Shown here piece after piece: positions 6,585 to 29,051 of a stretch of 34,212 nt of DNA. The DNA is from Isohypsibius dastychi (taxonomy: Eukaryota > Tardigrada > Eutardigrada > Parachela > Isohypsibiidae). A program made the translations under genes and the position numbers. The stretch covers positions 1 through 34,212 of the forward strand of contig JAQIWT010000113.1 in assembly GCA_034696485.1 (NCBI GenBank), in the 5' to 3' direction. Below the pieces are notes generated by a model. That model did not search any database. It was not told where the DNA came from and saw only the letters and a program-made list of their open reading frames with translations. Position 1 is the stretch's first letter; each line of letters begins with the position of its first letter.

Positions 6585-6637
6585 ATTCGCAAAAGCCGAG
6601 AAAAGTGGCTTGAAATATTGTGCCCACACTATTTCTT

Positions 6638-7412: not shown

Positions 7413-7418
7413 TACGTG

Positions 7419-8498
7419 TGTAGCCGGCAAGATAGTTGCGCGCAACTAGCAACTAACTTGCCGGACATCTCGGCAAGATAGTTGCGTCGGCAAGTTAGTT
7501 GCGCGCATTTCGGCTAGATAGTTGTGCACTGCGGAAATATTCATCATTGACATTTTTGATTCCATGGAGAGCTCTTTGGATTTCATGAGTAATATCAGCT
7601 GTTATTTATCACACCAAATGTTTAACTGAAAATGACACCTGATGGACTCAATCGATTCTAACAACATGCCACGGCATCACGAATACCAGCGAGCAAAATT
7701 TTAAAATAAAAAAGTTGGCTGAATTTCTTATCATACACTAATTAAATCTGCAGTCAGTTTTGGTGTCTTCTTGAGAGTGTTATGAATTCAAGTTTGCCTG
7801 TTGCTCTTTGCCTTTGTTCTTTGCTCATACAATGGTAAAAGACAGACTCTTCGATCTTACCGACTGACGCAACTATCTTGCCGGAGAACGCAACTATCTT
7901 GCCGGACGGCGCAACTAACTTGCCGAGCGGCGCAACGATCTTGCCGAGGAACACATGGTTCTGCTGTTGAGCAATTTTTTCACATATCTCAATATATTCT
8001 ATTCAAATGAATGCAGCCCGACGAGAATGTTCCCTGGACGGGGGGTGTGTGCCTCTAACAACCTTATTCTCCATTGTGAAAATAAAGCGCAAGATGTCTG
8101 AAGTTTGGTGAGAATGCATCACAAGTTCACCTCGGATCTCTACAACCAAATATTTGGTTGAAACTTGAGCTGAATCTAGCAAGAAGACATGACGACGTAT
8201 TTTTGGAATATTTATTGGCAACTGAGTGTTTCCACCAGAAAGAATTTAGATGTTTTTTTTGGGGGGTTGATAAGCATTGTTTTTAATTGCAGGAGCCAAA
8301 TTGGCTTCCGACTAAGATTAACCCAGTAAAATTGAAGCATTTTTACGTTTTGATTAAGTCAAACAAACTCAAATCGGAGGCTCTGCAGCACGCAACTATC
8401 TTGCCGAAACACGCGCAACTAACTTGCCGACGCAACTATCTTGCCGAGATGCCCGGCAAGTTAGTTGCTAGTTGCGCGCAACTATCTTGCCGGCTACA
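7419..8498. mobile_element. TGTAGCC-family non-autonomous DNA transposon, copy A (complete, 1,080 bp)
   Basis: The element starts TGTAGCCGGCAAGATAG and ends with the exact inverse, CTATCTTGCCGGCTACA. It is flanked by perfect 6-bp direct repeats TACGTG at 7413-7418 and 8499-8504. Each terminus is itself a hairpin: GGCAAGATAGTTGC pairs with GCAACTAACTTGCC. The 15-mer GCAACTATCTTGCCG, or the variant with TAACTTG, recurs many times at the left end (7425-7525), near the middle (7868-7945) and at the right end (8393-8494). There is no long ORF, so it must be mobilised by another element. A 6-bp target duplication rules out Tc1/mariner (TA). I do not assign a superfamily. Confidence 0.85.
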
Positions 8499-8504
8499 TA
8501 CGTG

Positions 8505-9106
8505 CTGCATTGCATTACATGACACGTCACAACGATTCCAGGAGAATTTCCATTTGAGCATGTCCTGCAGCGTCGACGTAAAACAGGCACGTTTACTTTT
8601 GATGGTACTCATAATCTGAATTGTCAGCAGAAGACAAGATGTGGAGATCTGCATTCGATTAGCTACGAAGCCGTGATATAACCAGGCATCAAGTACTAGC
8701 TTGCACTGGAGCGCGATTTTTCCAGCTTGTTCAAGAAGTTTGTTTTCTGTAACAGAAAACTACCACAGCGTTTTCTGCCACAAAATGTCGATATTTATTA
8801 GCAGAATGTCGACAATCACCGACAAAATGTCGTGCTGGTGTGAAGTGGGCATATATGGTCTTTGCCGAAGTACACTGCTTTCGCCGTAAAGTGAACATAC
8901 GGAAGAAGTCATATCAAAGCGCACATGCAAGACTCCGTTGTAATGCCTAGCTCGAAACACAAAAAGAGCTAAATTGTGGCTACCTGCTTCTGGTTGGTTA
9001 GCTCAAAACTCACTTAGAAGTCGTCAGAACCACTAGTTTTCTTGATTATTACGTTCTGGCTCGTTTTCGTGTTTACGGATCTTTTCCTCGTTTTTGATTG
9101 ATCACA
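8505..9106. other. Spacer between the two TGTAGCC elements, no gene seen
   Basis: No supported gene. A short cluster of an (A)AAATGTCG-like word occurs near 8783-8835 (CAAAATGTCG, GCAGAATGTCG, CAAAATGTCG), with unknown meaning. Confidence 0.4.
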
Positions 9107-9420
9107 TGTAGCCGGCAAGATAGTTGCGCGCAACTAGCAACTAACTTGCCGGGCATCTCGGCAAGATAGTTGCGTCGGCAAGTTAGTTGCGCGTATTTCG
9201 GCAAGATAGTTGTGCACTGCGGAAATACTCAGCAGTGACATTTTCGATTCCATGGAGAGCTATAAAAGCTCTTTGAATTTCATGAATAATAACAGCTCTT
9301 ATTTATCACACCAAATATTCGACTGAAAAAATCACCTGATGGACTCAATCGATTTTAACAACATGCCACCGCATTACGAATACCAGCGGGCAAAATTTTC
9401 AAAATAAAAAGTTTAGTTTA

Positions 9421-10707
9421 CTGTGCGATTCAGTTGCATTGATACACTTTTTCAGAAATTTATTTCTCCACAACCGCTCAACCGATTTTCACAAAAATGC
9501 TTCTATCTGATAGCCCTTTTTCTCTACCATAAGATCAACTCGTTTAGGCCATGATCGAAGAGCACGCTTAATTACAGAAATATCAAAACCCGCCCACACC
9601 CGCTTCGCATTGCGCACCAGTTGCTGCTGCGTGGTCGCCTTCTTCCTGTTGCATCTTTTCTTAAAAATCGAGTTCATCGCGTAATCCATCGGGGACAGAT
9701 CTGGAGGATAGGGTGGCCATTGCTCTTTCGTAATCCATTTCTTTTTGTTAACTGTAAGCCATTCAACTACCTCTTTGCACGCGTGAGAAGGAGCGTAGTC
9801 CATGTGGAGGATAACTTTGTCTTCTTCTCCCGGATATAATCGCGGGACGTCTTTCTCGTACAAAGGTTTGAGAACCAAGTCAATGAAGTTCTTGCCATTC
9901 ACCTTGATTTATCAGGGACGAAATACAAGCTTGTTTGGCCACGCATGCAGATTCCCATCGTCACCATTTTTTTCATCGACCAACCTCCTCCACTTTTATG
10001 CTTCCACTTATCTGGTCGTTCTTTCCCTTTTTCCTCGTAGTATCCGTCCCGCTCTCCAGTCATATCGTTCAGGGTAATCATCGTTTCATCAATTGTGAGC
10101 AGAAAAGGAAGATTCCGTCTGCTGATGAGGCGTCGGAAGCCTGGACCGCGAAGGAGTCGTTTCGCAGCTTGAGCATCGGTGAGCTTGTGAGTTTTGGTCT
10201 TTTTCTTGTACTTCATTCCGAGATCCTTCGTCAAAACCCGATTTATTGTTGACTGGGAGACTCCATACCTCGATTCCAACTCTCTTTGCGTCGGAGGATC
10301 AGCTTTGTTGACAATATTTTCCACGTTTTTGATCAGGCGCTTGGTTCTTACTTTTGGCAGTCCTGGGCTATTCGTCTTTTTGGTCTTTCCAGATTTTTTT
10401 GAATTTCCATTCTCCTTCTCAGCAAGAAGACGATTGATCGTACAATGGGAAACCACGATTCGATCTTCCGCTAGACGTTTCTGGATTTTCCGAGAAGTAG
10501 GAATAAACTGGCTAAGAGTCAAAATACGGGACTTGAGTTCAGAACTAATTTTCGGAGGCATTTCTTCATCTCGACCGTTGGAAACAATTTTAAACAGTTG
10601 GAAAATGACAACAGTTTCAAGAAAGTGGGTGGGATTGATTGGTTTGGTACAATAACGAGCGCGGGGAATTTTTTTAGGAAGTGTATCAATGCAATTGAAT
10701 CATACAG
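9421..10707 (-). mobile_element. Mariner-like element (DD37D) inserted in copy B
   Basis: The 1,287-bp insertion has terminal inverted repeats of about 29 bp. The left end begins CTGTGCGATTCAGTTGCATT and the right end is the inverse of CTGTATGATTCAATTGCATT, so there are a few mismatches. It is flanked by TA at 9419-9420 and 10708-10709. Removing it restores the sequence of copy A (which has GA at that site), so the insertion is directly visible. It carries one transposase gene, on the minus strand. Confidence 0.9.
9489..10561 (-). pseudogene. Mariner (maT-like, DD37D) transposase, one frameshift
   Basis: Two overlapping minus-strand frames make up one transposase. 9899-10561 holds the N-terminal paired-type helix-turn-helix domains (SRYGVSQSTINRVL) and the first catalytic Asp (LTIDETMI). 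9489-9902 holds the second Asp (HMDYAPSHAC) and the third (YPPDLSPMDY), with 37 residues between them. That spacing is the DD37D signature of the maT group of Tc1/mariner. The frames part at about 9899-9905, where a one-base deletion puts a stop after VPDKSR. Otherwise the gene looks recent: no other stop or gap is seen, and all three catalytic residues remain. A sequencing error at this base is possible. Confidence 0.88.
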
Positions 10708-11441
10708 TAATTTCTTATTATACCCTAAATAAATCCTTAGTCTGTTTTGGAGTCTTTTTGAGAGTGTTATGAATTCAAGTTTGCCTGTTGCTCTGCCTTT
10801 GCTCTTTGCTCATACAGTGGTAAAAGACGGATTCTCTGATCTTACCGACTGACGCAACTATCTTGCCGGAGAACGCAACTAACTTGCCGAACGGCGCAAC
10901 GATCTTGCCGAGGAACACACGGTTCTGCTGATCAGCACATTTTCACCTTATCTCAATGTTTTCTATTCAAATGAATGCAGCGCGATGAGAATGTTCACTG
11001 GACGAAGTGGGGACAAAAAAACATTTGTTTTGTGTTTCCAACAACGTTATTCTCCATTGTGAATATGAGGGGCAAGATGTATGAAATTTGGTGAGAATGC
11101 ATCACAAGTTCACGTCTGATCTCTGCAGGTATATTTGGTTGTACCTTGAGCTGAATCTAGCAAGAAAACATAACGACGTATTTTTGGAGTATTTATTGGC
11201 TGCTGAGAGTTTCCATCAGAAAGATTTTAAATAAAAAAATTTCGGGGGCTGACGAGCATTGTTTTTAATTGCCAGAGCCAAACTCGCTTCCAACTAAGAT
11301 TAACGCAGTAAAAGTGAAGCATTTTTACGTTTTGATTAAGTCAAACAAACTCAAATCGGAGGCTCTGCAGCGCACAACTATCTTGCCGAAACACGCGCAA
11401 CTAACTTACCGACGCAACTATCTTGCCGAGTTGCCCGGCAA

Positions 11442-11979
11442 CCCAAATGGACCAAAATCATTGAGACCGACACTCACCCGTACATTGTAAAATGAATCCG
11501 CGATGAGGGCTGTGAGTGTCACGGTTAATGATCACAGTTTCGGTGTCCAAGTGAGGTGACAGTTGATGTGAGGATCAAGCCACACTCTGTGGCCTTTTCA
11601 ATGTCGATCAGACTGTCATCTGAAACACAGCTGCGTTATCCATTTCAGCTTACTGCTGCTGTTCGGACTAAGAGCGGCTGTATGACATATGAATTGTTCT
11701 CTGAATACGAAAGGTCACCTTTCGGTTTTTTGCACTTTCCGACTGATTTTTATGTGTTTTCGATTTCAAGATTAATCGAACAGTTTGTTCTACTTATTTT
11801 ATTATTTGAAGAATAACATCGCGAATGTATTCCACATATCTCATTTCATGACAATGAAAACGATGGATACCGAAAATATTAAATTACACATGACAAAAAC
11901 GGAAAGCGACAAAATAAAATAACCAGCGAAAATGAAATAAGGAGAACCCGGATCAGCCTCGAATATTAGGTTAATTGAT
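11442..11979. other. Left subterminal region of the large insertion, no gene seen
   Basis: The outer 80 bp contain GACACTCA (11469-11476) and its inverse TGAGTGTCA (11513-11521). No convincing ORF is present. The 3' end of the Tudor-like gene follows on the minus strand. Confidence 0.45.
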
Positions 11980-14924
11980 TTACTCATCTGAGTCGTCTGC
12001 TTCACCGGCATCGGAGTCCGGGGATGAATCACTTGAACTTGGAAGTCGGTACGCTTTCGCGTTGAGAATCTTTTCCTTGATGTGCTCGGACTCCAGCGCT
12101 TTCTCAAACAAATTATTCACTTTGGAGTTGAAGCGACGAAGTGTAGAGTCGCGACCGAGTTTCCGGGGTCCTTGCAAATTGAAAGTCTTGTTCACATAAG
12201 CTGAAAAATGAAAGATTTATGCGTTAGCCAAATAAACAGGTGTTAGCGATGTGACTCACTCAGAATGGCCGGTACAGCTTCTTCGTTACTGAGCAGCGAA
12301 ACGCTGCCAACATCGCGGAACTTGCTTTTCATTTTGATGATTTCGTTGCTTCCTCCGCACATATGGACAAACAAGCGGTTTGCGAAATCGTTGACACAGC
12401 TCGCGCTTGTTCCTTTCCTTTCTGGGCCATGGTCATCATTCAGAGACGCTAGGAAACTGCGGTAGATGTAGCAACGAAGTCCCGGAACGAGCGTTTTAAC
12501 AAGTGCTCTTTTCTGTTTGTCAGTCGGTTTCGTTTGCCAGTAATGTTGACGGAAAAGCTTATCTAAGAAAAAACCACTGTGTAACCGAGAATTAGAACTA
12601 TATCAAGTCTTACTCCGCATGGACGGTCGGTTGTCGTTCTGTCGAATTTTGTCACGTGTGGATGGTTTACCTAAACATGTCGAAATTTTATTCAAGTGAC
12701 AGATTTTACAACAAAGATTCCCCTGTATCATGCAAGTTTACCTGTCTTTTTTTGACCGGAAGAACGTTTCTTGACCTGACCAGAAGGCCCTGGAGCGATG
12801 CTGCAGGAGTTGGCAATAGAATTATTGTCACCAATAATTGATCCATTTGCAGTTCCGATTTCTGCAAAATAACACTTGGCGATTTTAAGAACCGCGAACT
12901 GCATCGACGTCATTACCACTGCGCTCTTCTTCGTCATTTCGGGGCACAGATCCTGTGGCGGATAAAGCAAGGGGTCCGGAATAGTCGACACCGTCGCCTT
13001 CCTCTTCTGAGTGAAACAATAAAAATTAGATGACCAGCAGCCCATCTTTTTTTACCCTGTGCCGGATCAGAAGTCCGAACGGCATTCTTCTTGGTGGATT
13101 TCTTCGCTTTTTTAGCCATTCCTGAATTTTCCCGTGCTGCAAAATAAAAAACTGGAAGCGACCAATTCGTGCAGGATACAATTTAATGCACCTGTTGGCC
13201 GCTCAGTCACAGAAGCCGTCGTTGGGTCATCCGTTGAAGCTATACGATTGCGCTTGTCCCTGGTGGCCGAAACTTTACTGCCTGCCACAGAATTAGAATT
13301 ATACCCCAGAACAAAATCGGAATTACCGAAACTGGAATCACCGAACCTTGAGAAGAACCGGCCTGCTCAACTTGTTTTTTCCTGTCTGAATTCAATTCTG
13401 GTTAGAAATATCCGATGCAAGTAACTGGTCATGCTTACTTTTTGTCAAGTTTGGTCTTCCTACTGAACGCATTTTCAAATTTTTATTTTCAAGTATTTTA
13501 TTCTGGAAATACATGGCTGTTTCTCACCTGGCAATGGGACTGGAGTTGAGTCCCGGGAACTCGACGGGGTGTTTATCGGTGAGTGACTCGGCAATCGTTT
13601 TGACCCCGACTGTTTACCGGGGTTTCCTGCAATGTCGAGAAGCTAAGTGAGGTCTTTGTTGTGACTTTTTCTAATAAGTGATACTCAATAATAAATTTCA
13701 ACGCTGAATTATGAAATGCGAAACCATGAATGCGAAACCATACAAATTGTGTTGTTTGAAAATAATCCAGTTGCACGTACCGTTGGATGGAATCGGGGTT
13801 CCTTCTCGGGAAGTGGTTGGTGTTCTCGCGGCTGAAAAATCCGGTGGTTGCTGTGATGTTGATGTAATGTCGGTTCCTCGTTTTCTGGCTTTTTCGCGTT
13901 GGTGGACAACAACTTCTGGAACGGAAACCAAAATGGCAACGGGAAAAACATACATAATACCCCCATGTATTGAAATTTACTTGGAGATGGATCCGGCTTC
14001 TTAAACGGGGCGGTTACACCACGAGTAGACGCAACTCCATTTGGTCGGCTCGAGCGGGCTCTTTGTAGTGATGATAAAATAGGTGATTCGTGAGGTGGTT
14101 CTAACTCTGCAATAGCAACTGGTCGAGCCGGAAATAAAAAGAAAAACCAAACTATCACCTGAAACAGTAGCAGTTCTTCCTCCTTTATCGCTTCGGATTT
14201 TAACGATGTCCTCCAAACTATCGTCACTGTCAGCCAGACTTTCAAATTCGCTCGCCTGCAAGAATGAATATTAAGGTGTGGATTAATTTCGCCGCAGGTA
14301 CCGATCGAGCCATACCTTTTTGCTATTCGTGTTGACTTTGTTCAGTTCATCTCGTGTCCGAAACGCTTCACCGACATCTTTGGTTATCAGGACAATATCA
14401 GCTTCATACCAGTCGGTTTTCCTGTGTTATTGTAAGAGTGCATAAAACGAGGACAAAACTTTGACTTCATGAATCTTACTTTTGTCCAAAGGGAATCCAA
14501 GGAACTTTGATCGAATCCCCTATCTGATAACACTTGGCATCGAGGCGCTTTTCACCATATGATACGCGGAATCGAGGGGTAATTTTGGCAGTGAAATCCA
14601 AAATAGCGGAATGATTATCTTGTTGGACAGTCACTACAATGAAATCTAATCCACACGTTAAACTCGCTGGCATCTTTCGAATTTAGATTAACATGCAGCA
14701 TTACCTTTGTGTGACTTGTGAAAATCGGCCACTCGTTTCTTGTACACCTCGTCATCTTCCTCATCGAGAAGCGAGGCAGATGAAATATTAGACGCCGTCC
14801 TGCATCGCGTTGATCTTCTCTGGTTCACTATCGCATCTTCAGTTCCAGAGGTATTCTGCAGACGGGATGCTTTGTCTGTCCCACCCGGTGTAGCACCTTT
14901 GCGACTTCTATGTTTCGGATCCAT
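11980..14924 (-). CDS. Unknown nuclear-type protein with Tudor/SH3-like N-terminus, 653 aa, 15 exons
   Basis: Exons: 14705-14924, 14480-14645, 14316-14421, 14159-14255, 13981-14106, 13781-13915, 13528-13626, 13347-13397, 13192-13281, 13056-13136, 12917-13006, 12742-12861, 12614-12670, 12260-12562, 11980-12200. All phases agree with no in-frame stop. Residues 1-74 are basic/acidic and disordered. About 75-145 look Tudor-like by pattern only: GDSIKVPW (116-123) followed by WYEADIVLI. About 165-480 are Ser/Thr/Pro- and Lys-rich with nuclear-localisation-like runs (KKAKKSTKK). About 481-620 form a conserved-looking folded region (LVPGLRCYIYRSFLASLN) that I cannot place; the C-terminus is acidic (SDSSPDSDAGEADDSDE). 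It is divergent from the helix-hairpin-helix gene, 243 bp apart. No function is claimed. Confidence 0.75.
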
Positions 14925-15167
14925 GTCGGAAGTCAGTGGGAACTCACCCGCATAACAAAAAATGAATAAGGTACTGGAAAGTCACCGAAGTTCCCGAAAG
15001 ATGTGCAGCTCCTCGATTGAGGCGAAGCGGGTGATTTGTTGTGGTTTCTGGTGAGAGCTTAGCGAAGCGCAAGCTTGTTGCCGTAGTTCGTCCAGTAGCT
15101 GACTGGGTTTTTCGATATTTCCGGTGCTAGCATTAATATTGTCGAATTGGAATCCACTGCCTGGAAA
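14925..15167. promoter_or_regulatory. Shared divergent promoter region
   Basis: A 243-bp gap separates the ATGs of the Tudor-like gene (-) and the helix-hairpin-helix gene (+). Any promoter for either gene must lie here, so co-expression is likely. I see no clear TATA box. Confidence 0.45.
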
Positions 15168-15925
15168 ATGTCAATGGCGAAGCAGTATCCGGCGACAATG
15201 ACGATTCAGGAATTGCACATCAAAAATGAGGTGAACCGTGGACTCGTATGGGCATTTCTCGCTGAAGGTGAACGTCGTGATCATGAATTTGTGAAAAATG
15301 AGAGCTTGGGCTCTGGGACAATTTGGCGTTGTTGTGCAGTGCGTATCGCAGCCGCGGAGCAACTCATTCAGAGCAGTTTGGATGCAAAGGAGTTTGCTGG
15401 CGTCGGCGCATGGTTGACCGAGTTTATCGATCGATTCTTCGCAAAGACTTCGGACTGTTCGAAAGATACTTCAACCGGTTCAGGTAGGCTATTTTCGTGT
15501 ATTTCGTGTTGCTCCTACCTGATAATCGTATTTTTTCAGTTAAACAAGAAATACCGGAAGGAGACCGCCCGCAAAGAAGCGAGACACAAGGAGCAAAAGT
15601 TGTCAACCCGCTGAATGCAGGTCTTCACGAATTTCTGGTCCAAGAAGCTATGAAATGTCGGGAAAACAACAGAAAGCACCCAGGAACGGATTGGCAGAGT
15701 GTATCGTATTTTAAAGCGGCCCGCAGTGTCGCGAATGCTGAAATTCACATTGGGGACTACAAACAAGCTGTCGGTTTGCGTGGAATTGGAAAAGTGATTG
15801 CCGGAAACATTCAGGAAAATTTCTTCACTCGCATCACAACTTCCGCCAGCCGAAAGCACAGATTACTTTCCGAAGATGCCGAAGCCGAAAAGCCTTCTTT
15901 GAAAAGAGTTGAATGTTCAGAATGA
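15168..15925 (+). CDS. Helix-hairpin-helix (Pol beta/MUS81 N-terminal type) protein, 233 aa
   Basis: Two exons: 15168-15483 and 15540-15925, joined in phase 1 across a 56-bp intron ending TTTTTTCAG. Residues 128-200 resemble the HhH domain at the N-terminus of DNA polymerase beta and MUS81: NPLNAGLHEFLVQEA, then WQSVSYFKAARSVAN, then the hairpin LRGIGKVIAGNI (185-196). This fold binds DNA without sequence specificity. Polymerase and nuclease domains are absent, so it cannot be Pol beta or MUS81 itself. Residues 1-105 are not recognised. The C-terminal tail is basic/acidic. A frame upstream of the ATG is open but begins with no ATG. AATAAA lies at 15968-15973. A structure-specific DNA-binding role is an inference. 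Confidence 0.75.
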
Positions 15926-15967
15926 ATGTTGTTTGCGATTGAAACTTCTATTTCTTTCATGCCTCAG

Positions 15968-15973
15968 AATAAA
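15968..15973 (+). terminator. Polyadenylation signal AATAAA
   Basis: Canonical AATAAA 43 bases after the stop codon of the helix-hairpin-helix gene. Confidence 0.6.
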
Positions 15974-16182
15974 AAAAGATTGAAAGCACTGAAACTGGTT
16001 TTATGATGGATGTCACTGCAGTTCGTTCAAGAAAGATTTCAAAAAGCAAAGATTTCTGAAAGCAACAGACTAAAAACATAAAAACACATGTCGAAACAAC
16101 ACAGCAAAAAAGACAGGAATATCGCATGAAAAAACCATGATTTCTCAGAAAATGTTACTTAGCATGCAATAACAATCAACCT

Positions 16183-17677
16183 TCAGTTTTTACATGGCTG
16201 TACATGAAGCTTTGAGGTTGGACCGACCGGAAATCCATGGAGCTCGATAACAGCATTGAAAGCCTGAAAACCGATATCATGTGAACGAAATCTCCAAACA
16301 AATTCAGTATTGTACCTCCGGACCGCTCGACATAGATACGAGAGCTTTTCCATTACCAGTTGAATGCCCGATGTCGATAACCTGAAAAAAGTTCGCGGTA
16401 ATTTACAATACTGTAACCAGCTCAGGTCATACCTTGACGGAAGTTACGGTTCCATGGCCGCTGAAAAGTTCCCAAAGCGATGCACCATTGAGGAAACTCG
16501 GAAAGCCAGTCACACTCAACCAGAACGAGCCAGATCCAGATGTTGGCAAACTTGGCTGCGACGATCCGGATGCAATCGGGAACAGACTTGTGGTGTTAAG
16601 TGTAGTGACTTCCGGTTGGGATGCAGCCATCACAGAATGAATAGCTGAGACCGAATGAGAGCTTGAGCTTTTCTTTTTCTTGCTGTGAGCGAATTCGGCC
16701 TTCACTGGATGGGGTGATTCTGACGGATAATAAGCATTCATCGATGAGAGAGCAGATTCTGCCATGGATTTGGCTGGGTAGCGAATGAATCCAACGCCGC
16801 GACCTTCACCTACACATAGGAACATGAACACTGAAAGCTCACAACGGAAACGAAATTTACCGTTGATGGAGTTCAAGAGAAGCTTCACGCTGTTCGGTGT
16901 TCCGAAAGCAATTGCCAGCTCGGCGAGTTTATGTACACACCACGTGACCGGAAACGACGAAACATAGAGTAATCCGTAAGAAGCACCTTTTTGAAAGCGT
17001 CGCGCCATGAACACCTGAAGAATAAATGCACATTAATATTCCCAATTTTCGAAATTGACATTCGGATCTGCAAAGCATAAACAACAGTCATACCCGTAAT
17101 TGTTTTCCTTCGAGTGAAAATCCGTTCAGATCCCTGATTGCCTGCTTGCAGCTTGCATGTGTTGAGTAAGTCACAAATGCGTAGGCGAGAGCTGAAAATA
17201 ACAAACAAATCAGAATTAGTGGCAAATTGTCGATATCAAATAGTTAGATTCTAAATTTGAATAAGATAAGGGAATTCAGTTCGCTGAAAAATTCTTGACC
17301 TACATCGACTTTTCACGACTTGGACAGGTGCTGCGAATTCGCCTTTGGATCCAAAGAGCGTCTGCATGTATTCCGCCGTGACCTAAATAAATAAATAGGT
17401 CATGAAATGAATCCAGCTGGCATAACGTGAAACAATTTCCGGGGAAAACTCAGTGCAAGAACGATAGCAGCAAACATTGACATGCATTCAGATATCTTAC
17501 GTTCACTGGCAAATATGTGACCATGATTCGGTTTTCCCCGTTTCCTTCGTCATCAAAGGTCAACTCATGATATGTATTTCCTGGGCTGCACAGCATCTCC
17601 GGAAATGGGGATTCCGCTGGTGGTATCACATTTTGACAGTACGAGCATGATGAGGGAATCGCAACAGCTGGGTCCAT
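16183..17677 (-). CDS. Divergent ELAV/Hu-like RNA-binding protein with three RRMs, 343 aa
   Basis: Seven exons: 17501-17677, 17304-17382, 17094-17191, 16861-17014, 16433-16809, 16316-16381, 16183-16263; all phases agree. RRM1 (about 50-120) has RNP2 IMVTYL and RNP1 LAYAFVTY. RRM2 (about 130-205) has LLYVSSF and RGVGFIRY, followed by an ELAV-type end (PVKAEFAHSKKK). A Ser-rich hinge (about 210-260) leads to RRM3 (about 262-343) with FWLSVTGF and GKALVSM. The RRM-RRM-hinge-RRM plan, and especially RGVGFIR in RRM2, match the ELAV/Hu/Sex-lethal family, which bind U- and AU-rich RNA to control splicing and stability. RRM1 and RRM3 are eroded relative to host ELAV proteins, suggesting fast evolution. 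It lies in the candidate giant transposon and is divergent from the 182-aa gene. Confidence 0.85.
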
Positions 17678-17831
17678 TCTTCTGATGGAATTTGACTGCC
17701 GAGTGGAATGAACAAAGTTGATGTAGGTTTGATGACAGATTTTCCTCAAAAGAAGAGAGCGCTATCGAATGCAAAGTAATATTCGATGGGGAACTGAAAT
17801 GCTACGAAGGTGAAGCGTAGCAGCAAATCTG

Positions 17832-17841
17832 TATTTATATA
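17832..17841 (-). promoter_or_regulatory. TATA box upstream of the ELAV-like gene
   Basis: TATATAAATA on the minus strand, 155-164 bases upstream of the ELAV-like ATG. A possible trans-splice or leader acceptor (CTCGGCAG) lies between the two. Confidence 0.45.
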
Positions 17842-17891
17842 TGCGTGAGTTAGGGGGAGGAGTTTTTGGGCTGGACTAATTCCTTCTGAAT

Positions 17892-17899
17892 GACGTCAG
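17892..17899. promoter_or_regulatory. CRE-type bZIP site TGACGTCA in a divergent promoter
   Basis: A perfect palindromic cAMP-response element, with a half-matching TGACGTAA at 17928-17935. Both lie between the ELAV-like gene (-) and the 182-aa gene (+). From family knowledge, CREB/ATF proteins bind this site. Whether it is used here is inferred. Confidence 0.45.
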
Positions 17900-18130
17900 T
17901 TGAGCTGCACATTATAACACAACCCATGACGTAAACTGGTGATTTTCAAGCCGTTATCCAGGAATAATTCCAGGCACGAGAATTAAGAATGACTGACAGA
18001 ACTTTATTCACATACATTCTGTGATTCCTGGTTTTGCAGAAGTCGATGTCGATTGATATCAGCCTAGTTTGTGGGGTTTTTCGGTTGTTACCTGGCATTT
18101 ATTCCCGTTGATACAGCGTGTGGAATCACC

Positions 18131-18756
18131 ATGAGCGATGTAAGTAACATTTGTCGCCTCATTGTTTAACAGTATTACACCTCGTTTTTATTCGAATTTT
18201 GATGTTGTGTTCACAGAAACGTCAAAAGTGGTACAAGGAGGTCGTGGCTTCTCCACCACCGAAGCTGCCAGAGAATCCAAGTGGGACTCAAGTCCAGAAC
18301 CACAGAGCCATTCTGGGCATGCGACGCATTGCTCGCGGTGCATTTCCGACTGGACAAAAGCTAATTACGGCTTATTTCTTTCCGTTGGATCAGTCAAAAG
18401 CGCCAGTATTTCGAGAAGGCACCGGGGGTCAACGTGTGTTACTGGAAGCGTTCAAGCCATCGCAAATCGCCCGGGCTCGAAATAAACCAACAAAGAATGG
18501 ACCGGAAGTTCTCCGAAGTAGCAAGCTGAATTTCGAGGTCGCGTATAAACCGCAGCGCACATGTGTTTGTTCCCACTATCGCCAGCCGCAATACAATGGA
18601 TTTGGAAAGAACTGTCGATTTTCTGCTCAGACGAAGGAACATGTGAAGTCTTTAGTCATGAAGCCACAGCCGAAAGAATGGCCAGTCATCGATATTGTCG
18701 GAGAGGAAAAGTCAGCTGCTAATCCAAGCCAACTCAAGCCAACCCAACAATTCTGA
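18131..18756 (+). CDS. Unknown basic protein, 182 aa
   Basis: Two exons: 18131-18139 (MSD) and 18217-18756, joined in phase 0. The tiny first exon has a strong GTAAGT donor, and the acceptor is TGTTCACAG. The protein is basic and soluble, with no signal peptide or membrane segment. It has a repeated pattern of short basic helices (RRIARGAFPTGQK, SQIARARNKPTKNG) and a Cys/His cluster CVCSHYRQPQYNGFGKNC that could bind metal. I do not recognise the family. Its position between the ELAV-like and Tnp2-like genes makes it a candidate accessory gene of the mobile block. No function is claimed. Confidence 0.6.
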
Positions 18757-19159
18757 AGAAAATTCAAAGAACAAAGAATTTCAATGATATTTCCTTGTAC
18801 TTGAACAAGTTATGTCCACGATGGAATCCGTTTCCGGTTCCCCTTTTCAGCTCAGATTCACTAGATGTCATTCGCTCCTGTTTCTCATTCCCCTGCCTGT
18901 GAAAACGCGTTCAGATTTTTAATTAGTGTTCCGTGCTCTGATTGAAAATATTCAGATTGAAATGTTCTTACTGGATAATGCAATTAAAAAAGTAAAAGTC
19001 CTTGATTTTTGATGAAACTACTCCAAAGGTCAACCCCTCAGAACAATCTTTAGTTTGATCTTCCGTACGTCTCTGCACACGCTATTCGTTTGTTGTGGTT
19101 TGCACCTTGTTGTGGTTTGCACCTTGTTTACTTGTACTCGAGCAACTCGATGTTCCACA
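18757..19159. other. Intergenic upstream of the Tnp2-like gene
   Basis: No separate gene. Near 19092-19127 the word TTGTGGTTTGCACCTTG occurs twice in tandem. A frame open into the transposase exists, but it has no ATG before 19160. Confidence 0.45.
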
Positions 19160-21871
19160 ATGCCCAGAGGTGCACGTCGTAAACCATTTGAACAGTTGTC
19201 AGATCGTGGTCTGCAATCCTTCGAGCGGCGGATTCGAGAAGCGGAAAGGACATCTACTACAGCTCCTGACAAGGAACCAGATGGATACCCCGCGGAGGAT
19301 ATTTCTGGAGGCCCATGTGACTACACCTTTTACAGCGGTTCGTCCGCCGATAATTCAGCGGATTCAGATGCCTCAGACAATTTCATGTCGGAAAATCGTT
19401 ATTTGTTGTTCCCGGGATCGCCGCATCACAGGGAAGAAGCTGTTGTTGACTTGTTATTGCTTTGCCAGCGCCATGCTCTATCTAACTCCTGTATTAGCGC
19501 TATCCTCCGATTTTTGCAGCATTATCTCCCGGTTAACAACACGATGCCGAAGTCCAAATGGCTTCTCGACAAAGATGTCCTGAACCCCAAATCCGCATAT
19601 GTTTGTTTTCGTTACTGTGAGCGTCATTCTTATGTCATCGGCAAGGAAAATGAAAAGGGTGTACCCCCGGCCATTTGTACCAAATGTGCAGAAGAAGGAG
19701 AATCTGACGAACCCTTAAATTATGCGCGATTACACGTGGCTAACTTGGAGCACAGCCTGCGGTCCGTTCTTGACGATAACTCAGTTTCCGGCTCGTTTGA
19801 TCGTATCACACCAGGGAAACTTTGCATGCACAACGGTACTGAGTTCTATCGTGGTAACATCCGGAAAGGAGACATCTCGTTATCTATGTTCGTTGATGGA
19901 GCGCCGATACATAACGTATCACGCACAAATTCGATGGTGATCGTGCTGGTATTGATAAACAACTTGCCATATCACCTGCGACATAATTATGCATTTACAT
20001 TAGCTGTTAGCGTGAGTGGGAAATCAATACCCATGAACGTTCTGTTTAAACCAGTTGTGGCGCAGCTACTCAACTTATCGTCGGATGGAATGATCGTCAT
20101 GGGAAAAAGGAGACGAGTATTTTTGCGTGCCATTTTCGCCGATTCTCCGGCGAGAAGTGACGCCATGGGGCTTTCGAGATCGAATAAGCGCGACGGACCC
20201 TGCACAACATGTGAAATTATTTCGGCGCCCGGGAATCCGTCTAATACTGCTTGCTTTCCATTCTGTGGGACTCCTGCACGAATTCGGACACATGAAAGCA
20301 TATTAGACAATTATTGGAATCTGAAAGAACGCATGAAAATGGCGACCAGTGCGACTTCATTAAAAAGTATTCAGGATGCCGGTGTTCGTGGGGTTAAGAA
20401 ATTATCAGAGCTTCAAAGGCTGGGTAAGACTAAGCTCTGGCTAGATTCATATGAGATTATCCTATTTTCCAAAATCCGGTGTTTACAGGTAAGGATCATT
20501 TGGATTTCGGGTCCGGTTTCCCACATGACATAATGCATATAATCCAAGGATTGACCAAAAATCTGCTATTTATCTTGTTCGATGTACCAATGGATCAGTT
20601 GCCATATGGCGAACTACGAACGGAATTTGTGGATTGTAGCCGGCTACAAGAACAGACGCCATGCCGGAAGTACAATGACCATCGTAATCGTATCATTCCT
20701 GCCAATGGTGTTGAAAGTCTTGACCAATTCATCAAATGCATTCGTCGACCCAGCTCCCTTCACAGGTTCGGATGTTTCGTTACATTGCAGATCCGCAAGT
20801 AACATAATATAAAATTGTTTTTGTAGATGGCCGCGTGGCAGTATTGCATCGTATCAAGACTGGAAATCATCAGAAACACTTATCTGCATTGTTTATATTG
20901 TTGCCCTAATATGCGGTGAAAATCATTTGCTCAAGGATGTCATTGATTCCGAGATCCGTCACTTGTTGCGAACGCTAAATGGAAGTTTGATATTGCTTTT
21001 GACCGATTGGTACCCTATGTCAGAAAATCATCGCTCGGCTCAAGATGTCATGAAGGATAGAGCGGAAGCTGCGACTCTGATGATTGACGAGTTCATATAT
21101 TTGAGCACTATTTATTTTGGAAAAGAGTACATCGGCTGGAACTGGCATCAGCTGACGCATCTTCCGTTGTGCTACATGAGATGGGGACCTCTGATGAATT
21201 TCGCCAATTTCGCTAATGAGGATTTCTTCCGCGTGATCAAGCGACTTCGATGTGGCAAGCTAAACGTCGACAAAGAAATCACTGCGAAACTCGATATGTG
21301 GCAGACTGTTCAACTTCTGGATACGTTCAAGCCGGCGCCTATCAAACAGAGGATCTCCGGCAGAGGTCTACCTCTGAATAAATCGCACTTATCCCCGGAA
21401 ATGCGCCAGTTTGTAATAAATAACATTGCAGCTCCACAACTGGCCCAGGTAACAGATATCCGGATTTTCGAATTTGCCGTACTCCAGTCAAGGGAAAAAG
21501 TTGACGCTGTATCGTGGAACCGGCGGCTTACGCGACCTGTCAGTAACTCTTACTGGGTCACCTCGAAACAACCGATCAAAATTCTGGAAGTGTTTGGTAT
21601 TGTTCTGCTCTGTTTCTCGGATAATGAAAACAAGATGTACCTCGTTGGTCGACAAAGACTCGATGTACAGCAAAATTTTGTTTGGCAGTCAGTTATGAAT
21701 TCAGCTAACATCTTGACTCTCGATTTCTTTGAACATTTTTGTCCATCTGATAATTTTAATCTGGCATTTTGTGAGTTTGTCGACTTAGAGCGTCAATTGC
21801 TCATAGTTGAAGAAAATCGCAAAACAAGTTTACGATGGTTCCCCGTTTTATTCTCGATATCTCGTGACTAA
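19160..21871 (+). CDS. Tnp2/EnSpm (CACTA-type, CMC superfamily) transposase, 861 aa
   Basis: Three exons: 19160-20423, 20489-20765, 20827-21871, with introns of 65 and 61 bp and matching phases. Family landmarks in order: an N-terminal helical region and LPVNNTMPKSKWLL; a Cys cluster (CFRYCERH, CTKC); MFVDGAPIHN with Asp246; VLVLINNLPYHLR; FADSPARSDAMG with Asp328, then CTTC; FPHDIMHIIQGLTK with Asp435 and His438; then a region matching the second half of animal EnSpm proteins (HLPLCYMRWGPL, NEDFFR). These are the hallmarks of Tnp2 (transposase_21) proteins of CACTA-like elements. No stop or frameshift is present. It sits inside the 15.5-kb insertion and is the best candidate for the enzyme that moves it. 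A domesticated host gene is the alternative. Confidence 0.85.
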
Positions 21872-21877
21872 AATAAA
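21872..21877 (+). terminator. Polyadenylation signal AATAAA
   Basis: AATAAA begins directly after the TAA stop of the Tnp2-like gene and is followed 166 bp later by the next ATG, an operon-like spacing. Confidence 0.55.
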
Positions 21878-22042
21878 ATCCGGCGATAACGGTTGTTTTT
21901 ATGTAGTCGATTTCCTGTACTCAAGCCACGCCTCTTCGATTGCATTCATCGTCAGCTGTTCGGCACGCGGTCTGAATGCATGACATTTAAATCAAGGTTC
22001 CAGATTCTACAGTTCGAGCTCCTCGATTTTTTTCTTGAGAAT

Positions 22043-24450
22043 ATGGCAACCGTCTATGGTGCTGTCCGAGATGGCGAAGAAACGGGATTCTTCACGGCTT
22101 ATCCATTCAACGCCGATGAACGTCAGCAAGCACGTCTCAACGAAAGCAAATGGAAACTCAGAAACGTTGATCTTGGCATTTATCGATTGCCACATCCACC
22201 GCTTCGTTTTCACCGTGTACCACCTGGCGAGGAAATTCAGAGTTTTATCGGTATCCCAGAAGGAGCGTATGTTCGTCAAGGAAAATGGGTTTTCGAGTTG
22301 ACGTATATTCCTGGCAACGGAGCGGAAGCATGGGGAAAGCTGAGTTTTCAGGTAGACGGAATATTTGTGAATTGACTTTCATCTCGCATCCACTTCATGC
22401 TCTCATCAAAAAATTTAATTCGTTATTTTGCAGGTTGAGAACGATGTATTTGCGCGCGTTCAGCAAGGTCGCCCGAACACGGACTATTCATGGGTCGTCA
22501 AGTTCGGCCGAGTCCCCCGATTGCTTCATCATAGTCCGCCGCACTACGAGGGACTCGACGATGATGAGAAGTCAGCGCTGGAGTTTATGTATTTGACAAC
22601 AACCGAAGCCGACACCGTCACGATCCGAGCAACCAGTACGTTTCAAATCGCGGAAAATCTGAATTTTAATTTCGGTGGAAATATTTGTTGTCTTGGTTCA
22701 TGCAATTTATGAAATTCTCGATCCGTAAATTCATTTCATTTCGTGATTACATTCATTGCAGGTAATCAATATGGAGCAACTCACACTCTTACATCGTATC
22801 CTGCTGAATGGCGAAACTGCAACTATTACAAGGTGCAGCTGGATGAGAAGACGGGCACGTTTGGAGGGGATTTCAAATTGACAGTCCTCGGACAAGCTAA
22901 AATGGTCAGCGACATGTCGTATCAATCTTCCAAGTCGGTGAAAGACAAACAACAGCTTCTGATGTTCGGATCTGGTCTCATTTTCGAGGTGAGAAAAATA
23001 TTCAAGAAAATTTAAAAAAACCAAGCATCATGTTGTCTCGTTCAACAGTTGACCCCGAATGGCAATCGTCTTTATGCGGTTTATGACGCGGAACATGTCA
23101 GATTAGAGCGAATCTATGGCTCGCATCATCTGTGGACTCCTCGTTTCCAGGCATGCCCGATTTTGAAGACAGCGGTGCTGAGCAACATGTTGACCAAGCC
23201 TGAAATCCAAGCCATCTTCGAGTTCCGTTCCATTACCCCGATTAGCGATCGCCCGCTGATTTACTCTATTGGAAAGGTGCCAAATATTTACAACCAGGTG
23301 CGTTCTACGTATTCTTGTTTTTTTCTTGTTTTTCAGTGTGAGAAATAACGATTTCATAAATCCTCATAAATCTATTTCTTGTCGAATAATTTCAAGTTCA
23401 AATTTGTTCCGACGAAATTATTTCAGCTTGTTTGTTTTTCACAACATATATTGTATTTTTGCAGGAAGAAGATACTCCTGCTTCAGGGATTTTCGGGCCG
23501 CCGAAAAATTTCACCGGGAAATTCTCTCAAATGGGCCGCAAATACATCCAGATTGGACATGGTGCCAGTAGCCGCGGTGACGTTTGTGTCGCGAAGCGAT
23601 ATGAGGAAGTTCATGGGAATCCAACTCAAGTTTGGCTGGTTGCGACACGCGTGAACGATTATTGGCAACAAGGTTAGTTTCACAACAGTTTTCGCAGAGT
23701 TATTCCGCTTCAAACTTGAAATCTGACAACCGCTAATTGTTTTCAGAGGAGACCTCGATGAAATATAATGTTCGCAAAAAGGCGGTCGGCTTCGAATTCC
23801 ATCCGGTTGTTGTCGGTTTGGAACAGCATCATTTGATCCGTCGACTCGACAAAACCACTCGAGAATATGGACCAGTGCGCAAAGTCACTTATGAGATGGA
23901 GGAGGTTCCAATGGATGACATGGATACTGAGTCAGATCACTCAGAGCCGCCGTCGGCAATTGAGATTTCGGACAGCGAAGTGGATGATCAGGTTTTCACC
24001 CCGCCAGAGGAGATCCCTGAGGAACCGCAGCCGTCTACCAGCGGCCTTCGACCAGCTCGCATGGCTCGTAACGGGAAGAAACTTAACTTCAATGAAAGCT
24101 CAGGAGATGATCTTATGAGTGAAGAGGATGACCCAGCAGCAGTCCCGTTAACTCAACCAAAGCCGAAGAAATCCGTCAAGAAAACGCCACCGCAAGTCAT
24201 CGACATCCCGACGTCATCTGATGAGGAACCGAAGACCGAACATCCAGTGGCGAAAGTCACTCGTGGAAAACCAGGTGTTGCTCGAAAGGTCGCCACGAAA
24301 GAGGTCAAAAAAGATTCTGCCACCGGGAAGCGACCAACGGAGTCAGTCGGCAGTTATTCCGGAGGTTCGTCGGCCAATCCAGCTGCTACGAAGAAAGGTA
24401 CTCCGAAGGTCACTTTGGCTGAGCCGAACAGCGGCAGTTCGACTGTTTAG
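22043..24450 (+). CDS. Unknown protein with acidic Ser-rich C-terminal tail, 632 aa
   Basis: Six exons: 22043-22351, 22434-22635, 22762-22988, 23049-23297, 23465-23672, 23747-24450; all phases match. The ATG follows an acceptor-like CAGATTCTACAG at 22001-22012 and is 171 bp after the Tnp2-like stop, suggesting trans-splicing or an operon. Residues 1 to about 430 look like a globular, Tyr/Trp-rich, mainly beta domain (IYRLPHPPLRFHRVPPGEEI, WKLRNVDLG, CNYYKVQLDEKTGTFGG). I recognise no family. Residues about 430-632 are disordered: Asp/Glu/Ser-rich runs, SEEDD, repeated Pro-Ser and Lys-rich patches (KPKKSVKKTPP), as in nuclear chromatin-associated proteins. It could be a structural or DNA-packaging partner of the transposase. 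That is a guess from position only. Confidence 0.75.
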
Positions 24451-24856
24451 ATTGACTTTCCTTTATCGTTGAGTAAACATTCCGTTAAATAAGCATTCTC
24501 TGTTTCTTACCAAAAGTAATTCTTGGTTCCATTCCAAAGTTCCTTGTTTGGATCTGAAGTGTTCATTCATCTCACCTTACCATGTTCTGCATCCATTATT
24601 CGCCTCTTACTTTTTTTCACCTAGAATTTGTTCACGACGTCTTGTTCGATAAAAACCTTTGATAACTGGTTACTCGCGATCAGATTCCAAATTCGAAATC
24701 CGGCAGTCGCACCCCTTACCGTAGCCAACCACCTGATTGCTCGCACACCCCAGCATATCCAGAAAATTCCAACGTTACTTTTTTCCAGGTTTAGAATATC
24801 TCACACTTGGACAGCGCCACCAGTTCTTCTTTTATCCTAACCGATTTCGCATAATC
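24451..24856. other. Spacer and upstream copy of the RING gene promoter
   Basis: No independent gene. From 24616 it holds the first copy of a 403-bp duplication, including the acceptor-like TTTTTTCCAG before GTTTAGAATATC and a leader that ends at the ATG at 24857. Confidence 0.55.
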
Positions 24857-25421
24857 ATGTCTCGGATGCTGAGGTCTCAGGTTCCGACGGATCCGAATAA
24901 CAACTATTGGTATCTGCTAAATGAGCAAACAGGTCCTCTGAAGCAGGAAGTCCGTCGTCAACAAGCCAAAACCTGCGCAGCACGCAAGAACCAGGAAGAA
25001 ACGGAGCAGAAAAACCGATTCACCTAGAATTTGTTCACGACGTCTTGTTCGATAAAAACCTTTGATAACTGGTTACTCGCGATCAGATTCCAAATTCGAA
25101 ATCCGGCAGTCGCACCCCTTACCGTAGCCAACCACCTGATTGCTCGCACACCCCAGCATATCCAGAAAATTCCAACGTTACTTTTTTCCAGGTTTAGAAT
25201 ATCTCACACTTGGACAGCGCCACCAGTTCTTCTTTTATCCTAACCGATTTCGCATAATCATGTCTCGGATGCTGAGGTCTCAGGTTCCGACGGATCCGAA
25301 TAACAACTATTGGTATCTGCTAAATGAGCAAACAGGTCCTCTGAAGCAGGAAGTCCGTCGTCAACAAGCCAAAACCTGCGCAGCACGCAAGAACCAGGAA
25401 GAAACGGAGCAGAAAAACCGA
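24616..25421 (+). repeat. Perfect 403-bp tandem duplication of the RING gene 5' end
   Basis: 24616-25018 is repeated at 25019-25421 with no difference that I can find. The unit contains the promoter or leader and most of exon 1. The join lies within the shared word ACCGATTCACC. Identity this high means the event is very recent, or is an assembly artefact from two haplotypes. Confidence 0.9.
24857..25027 (+). pseudogene. Truncated duplicate of RING gene exon 1
   Basis: The first copy starts MSRMLRSQVPTDPNNNYWYL and runs identically to the second for 54 residues. It then reads into the start of the next repeat unit and stops two residues later (FT-stop). It lacks the exon 1 donor site, so it cannot splice into the rest of the gene. 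At best it gives a 56-residue peptide or acts as an upstream ORF. Confidence 0.8.
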
Positions 25422-26318
25422 TCATACGAAGCCGAAATGTCAAAGGTAAAAATCAGCTAAAGTAATTTCGACAATCTAACTCGAAAGCATTTGTGAATCA
25501 TTGTTGTGGTTTTTCGATTTGACCGAATTTCCTTTCAGCTGGTTAGAGAACGAAACGAATTGCGGAAGCAGCTGGTAGCAGCCCGAAAACCAAAAGAGAC
25601 ACCGAAGGTATGAACCCATGAAGCAAGTTATGGACAAACCTAACTTTTTCTTTTCTAGACCGGAGAAGGACAAAATTGCCTCAAACGCAAGGTTATGGAA
25701 TATGAAGTCGATATGGAGTCCCTTCGGCAACAACTCACAGCCTCGCAAGCAGCCCTAGCCAAAGAGGAGCAAGCTGGAAAAAAGCTGCGTTTATCTCTGG
25801 AGCTGAAAGAAGTCACTGTGGAGGAATCTAAACAAGCGGAAATGTTCTGGCGCACTGAATTCAAGAAGGTACAGACAAATACACCTCCGCAGAGACCTTT
25901 TGTTAATTTTCTGTTATCAACATTACAGGTTGACTCTGAAAAACGAGATTTGGGTGAAGTCGCAGAAACACTCCAGCAAGAAATTGATCGATTGGAATTT
26001 GACATGGAATCGATGAAAACAGATCTTCAAGCTGTCATTGCTGCCTCTTCAACCTCGATCGACTGCGCGATTTGTCTGGACAAGGTAGCTACCGGAGATT
26101 CCGATTATTTACGACATTGTGATTGAAATTCATTGTAATCGCAGAAACATGAACTCCATGAGGGATTATCAGCGCTAATTTGTGGACATTGCTATTGCAC
26201 CCCATGTGTGACGGCTTGGTGGACCGCAAATCACCTCGCTCAACAACCAACGCAGTGCCCGAAGTGCCGCCGTACGAGCAAAACTCCACCAAAAAGAGTC
26301 TACATTTTCGATGACTGA
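25260..26318 (+). CDS. Coiled-coil RING-HC E3 ubiquitin ligase-like protein, 264 aa
   Basis: Five exons, all joined in phase 0: 25260-25445, 25539-25607, 25659-25868, 25929-26084, 26145-26318. Residues 1-28 are a short lead. About 30-195 form a long charged coiled coil rich in Glu, Lys and Gln (EYEVDMESLRQQLTASQ). A C3HC4 RING follows at 201-248: CAIC (201, 204), then Cys220-Gly-His222, Cys225, Cys228, Cys245 and Cys248 (CPKC). The intron at 26085-26144 cuts the RING after the second Cys. All eight metal ligands are present, so E2 binding and ubiquitin transfer are likely. Coiled coil plus RING is a common dimeric E3 plan. The target is unknown. It is the last gene before the right end of the large insertion. 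Confidence 0.85.
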
Positions 26319-26925
26319 GCGAATCTCACATCCACGATGTACGATTTCACGATTTCTCATTCCAGTTCTCCGCCGGGTACGACAACTCCATAATTTCTGC
26401 CAAATTTTTAGAGTGGATTTCTATGCCAAATTTCATTAACAAATTTCGCTGCCAAATTTCTCTGCCAAATTTCTCTGCCAAATTTACATGCGCTCATTTT
26501 GAACGTACGAAAATATCCACTTGAACTGTATTTTTAGAATAACCTTTTTCTGAGTTGCAATTTTATTCGAAGTCGGATTAACACATTTTTTTGGTTAACG
26601 CGTTTTTTGTACGCGCGAAAAGGAGGATCATATAAAATTAAAATGCGATCGCATTACAAAATTCCATGCGGCGTGTTCATAACAAAACCGGAAATCCCAA
26701 TTGCAAAGTGCAAAAAAACAAGAGTATTCTGTGGCTGACGTTTGCATGGCAGACCCGAAAAAATGGCAGAATATCACATGAATATTAAGCTGATTAAGTA
26801 TGGCTGTAATGCTGACCACCTTCTCAGTGTACAAATCACGAGTAGCGACTGAGTGCCGCAATGAGTGGGCGATAAAATCAGTTTTCCGGCTAATCGACAC
26901 TCATCGAATATTTGTCGCGCTTGGG
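26319..26925. other. Right subterminal region of the large insertion
   Basis: No gene is seen. It contains the TGCCAAATTT tandem repeats and, in the last 130 bp, several GAGTG/CACTC words (GACTGAGTGCC, CAATGAGTGGGC, CGACACTCA) before the terminal TTGGG. Confidence 0.45.
26395..26484 (+). repeat. Short tandem repeats of TGCCAAATTT
   Basis: Five TGCCAAATTT-type units, the last three at exact 13-bp spacing (TCTGCCAAATTTC), and one degenerate unit (AACAAATTT). Confidence 0.75.
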
Positions 26926-26966
26926 AAGTTAGTTGCTAGTTGCGCGCAACTATCTTGCCGGCTACA
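26926..26966. mobile_element. Right tip of TGTAGCC-family copy B (detached)
   Basis: AAGTTAGTTGCTAGTTGCG through to GGCTACA is identical to the last 41 bases of copy A. It begins exactly where the left part of copy B ended (AA shared). Its outer flank ATCGCA (26967-26972) matches the ATCACA before 9107 at five of six positions. Confidence 0.85.
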
Positions 26967-27670
26967 ATCGCATAATCAACGAACAAGTGGTGAACTCGGA
27001 CATGATGTGGCGTAACTGTCCACCGAATCCTTGATATTGATTCTACTGATCTGGTCAAGTCAACCGCCATCGAGTTTCTGGTTTCACATCTTGCGTGAAT
27101 CAAATGACACTTTGTTGACCTTTTGACCATTTGGTGTTTTCGCATCTCAGGCCTTCAGGGGATGTGGTCAGAAACGTGGATCGCTGAGTCAGCGAAGAAA
27201 AAAAGACTATCCACCTAATCAAGAACAATAGATTGTGTGTATAAGCAAGGTGACTATTATATGACTAGTAATCCACAAGTAGTCGTCAGGTCATCAGTCA
27301 AGTTTCCACGCTAGACTCCGTAACCTGGAATAAAACAATATGACAGATAAAAGGTTTCAGTTTTCCTTCGGAACTATCGTGAGTTAACTATCTGATCGCA
27401 AATTTCCAGATCTCACCTGGTCACTGATGAGCACTGCATTGTGCCCTCCTTCACCAAATTCCGTTTTCCAGATACGGAAAACTGGTTTGGCAATGCCATA
27501 GAATTGCGAGCTTAATGTTGGGTAGACTACTGGGTTACAGTTAGTTCGTGGTATTTCCCCATTTTACAATCGTCGCAATACCGGCACAAAACATCATTCG
27601 ACGGTGAATGTGAGCGCAAGGGCTCAGGAGTTTTGCTCTGTATCAATCATCACGACAGTTCAATGTTGAA
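26967..27670. other. Intergenic, no gene seen
   Basis: No reading frame with splice support or a known motif. Presumably upstream sequence of the second Kazal gene. Confidence 0.45.
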
Positions 27671-28717: not shown

Positions 28718-28925
28718 GGCACCCCGTGCTTTCGGAGTAGGATCTTTCGGAGTGCCATATTCGGAGTGCCATTTTGGGAGTGCCATTTTGGGAGTAAAAG
28801 GTTTTTCGGAGTCCGAGGTTTGGGAGTAAAAGTTTTTCGGAGTGATGGTTTTTCGGAGTAATGGTTTATCGGAGTTGTGATTTATCGGAGTAAGGGTTTT
28901 TCGGAGTTAGGACTTTTCGGAGTAA
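28718..28925 (+). repeat. Left subterminal array of TTTCGGAGT words
   Basis: About a dozen copies of CGGAGT or GGGAGT, each preceded by a T-run and spaced about 13-25 bp apart. The inverse array lies at 30660-30857. The arrays can pair as a long foldback and are probably transposase-binding sites. Confidence 0.75.
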
Positions 28926-29051
28926 CAACACGTCCGAAATTTATTGGGTGCAGTTCAATACAGGAATCAGAAAAAGAGCAGGAAGATTTTTTTGGGGCTA
29001 GAAAAAAGAAAAAACTGAACTTCAAAATGCGCCGAAAAACTGAAAACTAAT

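Follow-up and report, generated by a model that had tools for sequence, protein, structure and literature searches.

A Multi-Copy, Seven-Gene Transposon Family of the CMC Clade in the Genome Assembly of Isohypsibius dastychi

Contig JAQIWT010000113.1 of the Isohypsibius dastychi assembly GCA_034696485.1, analyzed here as one stretch of 34,212 nucleotides (the window), carries at positions 11442–26925 (plus strand) a giant transposon of the CACTA/Mirage/Chapaev (CMC) clade, which is 15,484 bp long, starts with CCCAA, and ends with TTGGG. Its identification is based on a split target, the target-site duplication (TSD), the terminal repeat, and two further complete copies in the genome. The block is very probably one complete copy of a family of cut-and-paste DNA transposons of approximately 15.3–15.5 kb, in which the six proteins encoded besides the transposase most likely belong to the machinery of the element. 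The family is multi-copy and has seven genes, here named A to G, with the order and orientation A(−), B(+), C(−), D(+), E(+), F(+), and G(+). Gene E encodes the transposase, C a protein with RNA recognition motifs (RRMs), and G a RING protein.

Insertion Site and Ends of the Block

The block lies inside copy B of a TGTAGCC terminal inverted repeat (TIR) element, of which the window also holds an intact copy A (7419–8499). Copy B breaks off after ...GCCCGGCAA at position 11441 and continues with AAGTTAGTTG from position 26926, and copy A reads GGCAAGTTAG at the corresponding point. The sequence-only reading, made before this analysis, held that the block splits a TGTAGCC element and that AA is the sole duplicate; both statements are exact to the base against copy A. 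The left part of the target (9107–11441, plus strand) was delimited by comparison with copy A and contains a nested DDE transposon of its own, and the right tip (26926–26966, plus strand) is a 44-nt match, at 98%, to the end of copy A. The two AA dinucleotides of the TSD are placed by the split target, at 11440–11441 within copy B and at 26926–26927. The outer flanks of copy B (ATCACA and ATCGCA) are identical at 5 of 6 positions, as had been read, and copy A has a perfect 6-bp duplication (TACGTG) and self-complementary ends.

A probe of 140 bases from the end of copy B gave 41 matches genome-wide. The uninterrupted end of the TGTAGCC element was seen at all eight inspected loci on six distinct contigs (seven exact, one with a single mismatch), where each match could be either end of a copy, since the two ends are inverted repeats of each other. 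Copy B, unlike copy A, harbors a nested DDE transposase gene at 9418–10710 (model 9489–10561, minus strand), which lies between 44-nt inverted repeats; the gene model shows weak Tc3-type and helix-turn-helix matches.

At both junctions, the block was confirmed to start with CCCAA (11442–11446, plus strand) and to end with TTGGG (26921–26925, plus strand), the two parts of its terminal inverted repeat. Because the split target fixes the ends of the block beforehand, the chance of a 5-bp inverted match at these positions is approximately 1 in 1000 by simple arithmetic, and the AA/AA match contributes a further 1 in 16. Terminal hairpins were unremarkable (z of −1.6 and −1.0).

Further Copies in the Genome

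Two further complete copies were located, on contigs C296 and C82. The C296 copy spans 841–16165 (15,325 bp) with flanks AA/AA, its ends being GTCAACAA/CCCAAG... and ...CTTGGG/AACACT (slashes mark the element boundaries). All seven genes are present in it, in the order and relative orientation of the window copy. A 29-base pattern of the right terminus, derived from the window and C296, occurs in the genome at these two sites only with up to three mismatches allowed, and its reversed control occurs nowhere. The C82 copy spans 1685–16995 (15,311 bp) with flanks CA/CA and ends CTCAATCA/CCCAAG... and ...CTTGGG/CAGAGG. It contains A, B, D, E, and F, with no alignable G and a weak match to C. The two gaps of this copy yielded gene models. 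The one between E and D has three RRMs (RRM_1, 2.2e-34), and the one between D and B is of RING type (zf-C3HC4_3, 8.5e-5, under the Pfam cut-off). A fourth right end is located at position 2130 of C1383 (TCAA/CCCAAGCGCTAC), with the opposite end off the contig, and this contig also encodes a three-RRM protein (4.3e-37). The gene kinds are thus retained, whereas the RRM and RING genes vary in position and sequence. On C296, one of the partial matches to G, a RING hit with 44% over 43 residues, falls outside the element, at 17960–18082.

The proposal that the block moved as one unit is thus supported by two further complete copies with the same termini and 2-bp duplications. Other copies sharing the ends, the gene set, and the 2-bp duplications had been named beforehand as the evidence to look for, and those on C296 and C82 qualify, although probes made of the end DNA alone retrieved none. 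We also considered a segmental duplication of a host gene cluster with a domesticated transposase, to which the presence of introns and the apparent purifying selection (see below) would be agreeable. Such an origin has very little probability, as similarity is limited to the interval between CCCAA and TTGGG, all three complete copies have unrelated flanks and a 2-bp duplication, and one copy is nested inside another transposon. The flanks of the three copies (441–1684 bp each) share no similarity in blastn at E up to 1e-3.

Equally hard to believe is an assembly chimera, that is, unrelated contigs joined inside the repeated TGTAGCC element. The junctions do fall in a repeat (the end with 41 matches), and a perfect 403-bp tandem duplication within the block could be an assembly fault. 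However, such a joining would not produce the TSD, and it would not give C296 and C82 matching ends and the same set of genes.

Transposase and Classification

Gene E (19160–21871, plus strand) has three exons and encodes a tnp2-type DDE transposase of 861 aa, with the residues D246, D328, C348/C351, H434/H438, and E645. It matches the Pfam family Transposase_21 (tnp2) with E values of 3.5e-6 and 7.8e-6, at bit scores slightly under the Pfam cut-off; this match and the DDE, C(2)C, and H(3)H residues bear out the Tnp2-type transposase that had been recognized inside the block. Motifs were counted in 13 copies, as C354 and C1008 were left out of the 15 contigs with E matches, and for the window the motif PHDIMHI was taken from the gene model, the alignment row having reached the intron. 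All 13 transposases have the catalytic D, D, and E and the C(2)C between the second D and the E. Within the H(3)H of the same interval, the second H is found in 13 of 13 and the first in 10 of 13. No relatives of E were found among the best 8000 candidates scored in a database of 5.8 billion proteins.

As outlined in PMC12730594, the CMCT clade is defined by a DDE transposase with C(2)C and H(3-4)H and by TSDs of 2–5 bp. By this definition, and judged from sequence motifs, E and its element belong to the CMC (CMCT) clade. The TSD is 2 bp at all three complete copies (AA in the window and C296, CA in C82), which is within the range of the clade. The same outline gives mostly 5′-CA..TG-3′ as the termini of the clade, in contrast to CCC..GGG here. 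The features of EnSpm/CACTA elements in the narrow sense, namely CAC...GTG termini and a 3-bp duplication, were not found at the three complete copies; the element has CCCAA...TTGGG and 2 bp instead and is therefore not filed as CACTA. Mirage elements also have a 2-bp duplication, and the agreement with the block is in this length only. The motifs and the target duplications together suggest that E would be the protein moving the element.

Genes of the Window Copy

The seven gene models are predictions from a simple splice-aware script, those of C and G having been completed by hand. Gene B (15174–15925, plus strand) is predicted to encode a helix-hairpin-helix protein of 231 aa (HHH_8, 9e-8 in the Pfam scan), in agreement with its earlier HhH label. 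Gene C (16183–17677, minus strand) has a product of approximately 343 aa with three RRMs (RRM_1, 7.9e-25). Gene G (25269–26318, plus strand) would encode approximately 261 aa with a coiled-coil-like part and a RING, a label that is substantiated by zf-RING_2 (3.7e-5) and by zf-C3HC4, which exceeds the Pfam cut-off. A perfect 403-bp tandem duplication (24616–25422, plus strand) spans the region ahead of G together with its first exon, and represents either a very recent event or an assembly fault.

Genes A, D, and F had no convincing match to a known family in the Pfam scan. Gene D (18131–18756, plus strand) encodes a conserved protein of 182 aa. Gene F (22043–24450, plus strand; six exons) encodes a conserved protein of 632 aa with a low-complexity charged tail, and no relatives of its first 453 residues were found in the database of 5.8 billion proteins. 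An immunoglobulin-like fold for F was tried and rejected, since its best E value of 4e-5 for F alone weakens to 2.6e-4 when three homologues are added, and the match is treated as chance. These matches center on a string which, in our own reading, presumably resembles a lambda J segment.

The proteins without a known family could recall an integrated virus or a virus–transposon hybrid of the Teratorn kind. This is highly unlikely, as the Pfam scan of the seven proteins, and for F also PHROGs, revealed nothing above chance that resembles a polymerase, a capsid, or a packaging protein, and neither exon 1 of E nor D has relatives in IMG/VR. Similarly, no Maverick/Polinton gene (PolB, retroviral-type integrase, or capsid) was matched in the Pfam scan of the seven proteins.

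Gene A (11980–14924, minus strand; 13 exons) is modeled as a protein of 596 aa with charged stretches of low complexity; its conserved C-terminal domain (12255–12566) has a weak H2B-like profile match. The Tudor-like label given to it earlier was not upheld, there being no Tudor profile match. The profile of the C-terminal domain retrieved 143 sequences from the PDB at E up to 1, and among the 60 best of these 143 there are 59 H2B and one H4. The best match is 8grq_D, a fused double H2B, with an E value of 3.6e-5 that sums two H2B domains; the single-domain E is 6e-4 with 9 members in the profile and 1.4e-3 with 16, and more members gave no gain. HHalign gave 58% and then 54% against H2B, over 52–53 columns only, compared with at most 0.2% against H2A and H4. 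No histone match was obtained for the domain in Pfam. An H2B-like histone fold is thus a lead offered by profile comparison. A BEN domain, suggested by eye, was rejected, because 0 of 16 members match the Pfam BEN model at E up to 1. One contig, C795 (loci L087 and L088), has four A-type C-terminal domains, which suggests that several copies are nested there or that the A family has expanded in a related element.

Co-Occurrence, Divergence, and Selection

In the search by protein, the contigs matched besides that of the window were 14 for E, 12 for F, 14 for A, 7 for D, 4 for B, 2 for C, and 1 for G, numbers which are lower bounds for large families. A match to E is also present on all 7 of the D contigs, on 8 of the 12 with F, and on 8 of the 14 with A. 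The hypergeometric probability of such co-occurrence with the 14 E contigs out of 1647, with contigs treated as equal, is 5e-16 for D, 1e-15 for F, and 7e-15 for A. The four genes A, D, E, and F are together on 6 contigs, and at least two of A, B, D, E, and F are found on 12, including C296 and C82 (that of the window left out).

Pairwise distances were compared among the contigs whose loci had been fetched. Distances of E and A are correlated (r = 0.76, P = 0.0005, 9 contigs), and remain so when the window, C296, and C82 are removed (r = 0.76, P = 0.025, 6 contigs). Distances of E and D are correlated as well (r = 0.66, P = 0.013, 6 contigs).

Codon divergence between the window and the copies on C296 and C82 was calculated from codons aligned by tblastn. 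The calculation is limited to sites with an exact counterpart in the window (387 of 596 for A, 51 of 261 for G, and 791 of 861 for E), so that parts of A and G are left out, and the value for G comes from 51 codons in a single comparison. Divergence is 0.59–0.73 at third positions and 0.51–0.87 at fourfold sites. At second positions, it is 0.18 for E and 0.25–0.34 for the other genes in the comparison with C296. Over both comparisons, third positions show 0.59–0.66 and second positions 0.18–0.38, with the exception of gene C against C82, which is the least clear case (0.73 vs 0.50, 116 codons). An alignment built on protein similarity favors conserved codons; sequences that had diverged neutrally to this extent would hardly align at all. 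The pattern points to purifying selection on the genes, as far as aligned codons can tell. Together with the co-varying gene distances, it makes the genes look like a conserved kit and not a passive load. The term cargo, used for them in the sequence-only reading, is therefore probably a misnomer, since copies whose silent sites are close to saturation still share the same kinds of genes.

Several observations weigh against a family with its own seven-gene machinery. The inverted repeat common to the left and right ends is 5–6 bp only. The end DNA of the block is single-copy in the genome according to end-DNA probes; other copies therefore had to be located via their proteins, and a recent burst is not indicated. 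The subterminal motif GACACTC, chosen post hoc, is terminal at 3 of 3 sites in the window, at 1 of 4 in C296, and at 1 of 3 in C82. None of the ends of the distant copies on C349, C650, C721, C438, C613, and C707 could be assigned. Only two of the four other contigs with B also have E, and by protein search C was found on C296 and C465 only and G on C296 only. The RRM and RING genes of C82 sit elsewhere in the element and can hardly, if at all, be aligned with C and G, as if exchanged, and in the comparison with C82 the sign of selection is weakest for the RRM gene.

The last two points, and the fact that RRM and RING are widespread host domains, would be expected of a real transposon in which every gene except E came from the host as a passenger, carried for host benefit or by accident, as in Starships and Pack-MULEs. 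We regard this as unlikely. Against it, the same seven kinds are present in all three complete copies, A, D, and F have no convincing known family, and the distances of A and D follow those of the transposase. The six proteins are most likely the element's own machinery and not passengers.

Neighboring Features of the Window

Three other genes noted in the window lie outside the block and its target. A long papain-like protein is encoded at 772–5463, in which repeated cysteine-rich (chitin-binding-like) and SCP-like parts were seen by eye; of its 18 database matches, 10 are from Trichinella and 1 is from Perkinsus, while the other 7, which include the best one, come from records that give no organism. 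Together with the appearance of the secreted proteins in the flanks, these matches make an animal host probable. A transposase-like gene (model 29052–30533, minus strand; MULE-type by eye) is located at 28720–30850 between arrays of TTCGGAGTGCC-like repeats. At 31400–31996, there is an intronless maltose O-acetyltransferase-like gene (Mac, Hexapep) of bacterial look, for which horizontal transfer or contamination is possible. No Rfam family or tRNA was found across the window.

Possible Functions of the Seven Proteins

Under the proposed mechanism, E would excise and insert the element, and at least one of A, B, D, and F may bind the element ends or the donor DNA. In plant CACTA elements, this binding role is played by TnpA. 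The RRM and RING proteins may act on the mRNA of the element or on host silencing factors, like VANC for VANDAL of Arabidopsis. That the six proteins act in regulation, in the handling of DNA, or in the evasion of silencing appears somewhat more likely than not.

Animal DNA transposons usually carry one or two genes. The retention of seven kinds, apparently under purifying selection and with near-saturated silent sites, suggests that the element could not persist without its additional proteins. More speculatively, the family could represent a previously undescribed and probably animal CMC lineage moving with a conserved seven-protein machine, composed of the transposase and RNA-binding, ubiquitin-ligase, DNA-binding, and two or three novel proteins. 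In this proposal, a chromatin-type protein with an H2B-like histone-fold domain would help the element to escape the silencing imposed on it by the host, or to rewrite it; taken as a whole, this proposal is rather doubtful. The seven-gene kit offers candidates, open to testing, for counter-defence or transposition factors that a transposon itself encodes.

Comparison with Known Systems

Fungal Starships are, in the accounts excerpted here, multi-gene giant transposons with sizes up to ~700 kb and variable cargo (PMC11623301, PMC12289983, PMC12134995), which use a tyrosine recombinase (PMC12134995). The block resembles them as a multi-gene giant transposon but has a DDE/tnp2 transposase, and no tyrosine recombinase (Starship captain) was matched in the Pfam scan of the seven proteins. 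VANDAL/Hiun of Arabidopsis, as summarized in PMC6446971, has the additional ORFs VANB and VANC, one of which is an anti-silencing factor. By this description, it is likewise a DNA transposon with additional ORFs, yet of the Mutator type.

In the open-access literature (subscription papers and Repbase Reports being outside this scope), no animal CMC element with a comparable gene set was found among the matches listed. The closest descriptions concern giant EnSpm/CACTA elements of algae, that is, those of the red alga Chondrus crispus, of 16–20 kb with 4–5 ORFs (Kojima et al. 2013, cited in PMC6431247), and those of Ectocarpus, of up to 15.2 kb (PMC12477816). As far as these short accounts go, the likeness consists of the transposase clade, the similar length, and several accessory ORFs. 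The differences are the algal hosts and, here, the CCCAA...TTGGG termini with 2-bp duplications; the accessory proteins are set apart by description only, as the accounts do not mention a set of RRM, RING, HhH, A, D, and F. Giant multi-gene CMC elements, known from algae, would with this family extend to what is probably an animal.

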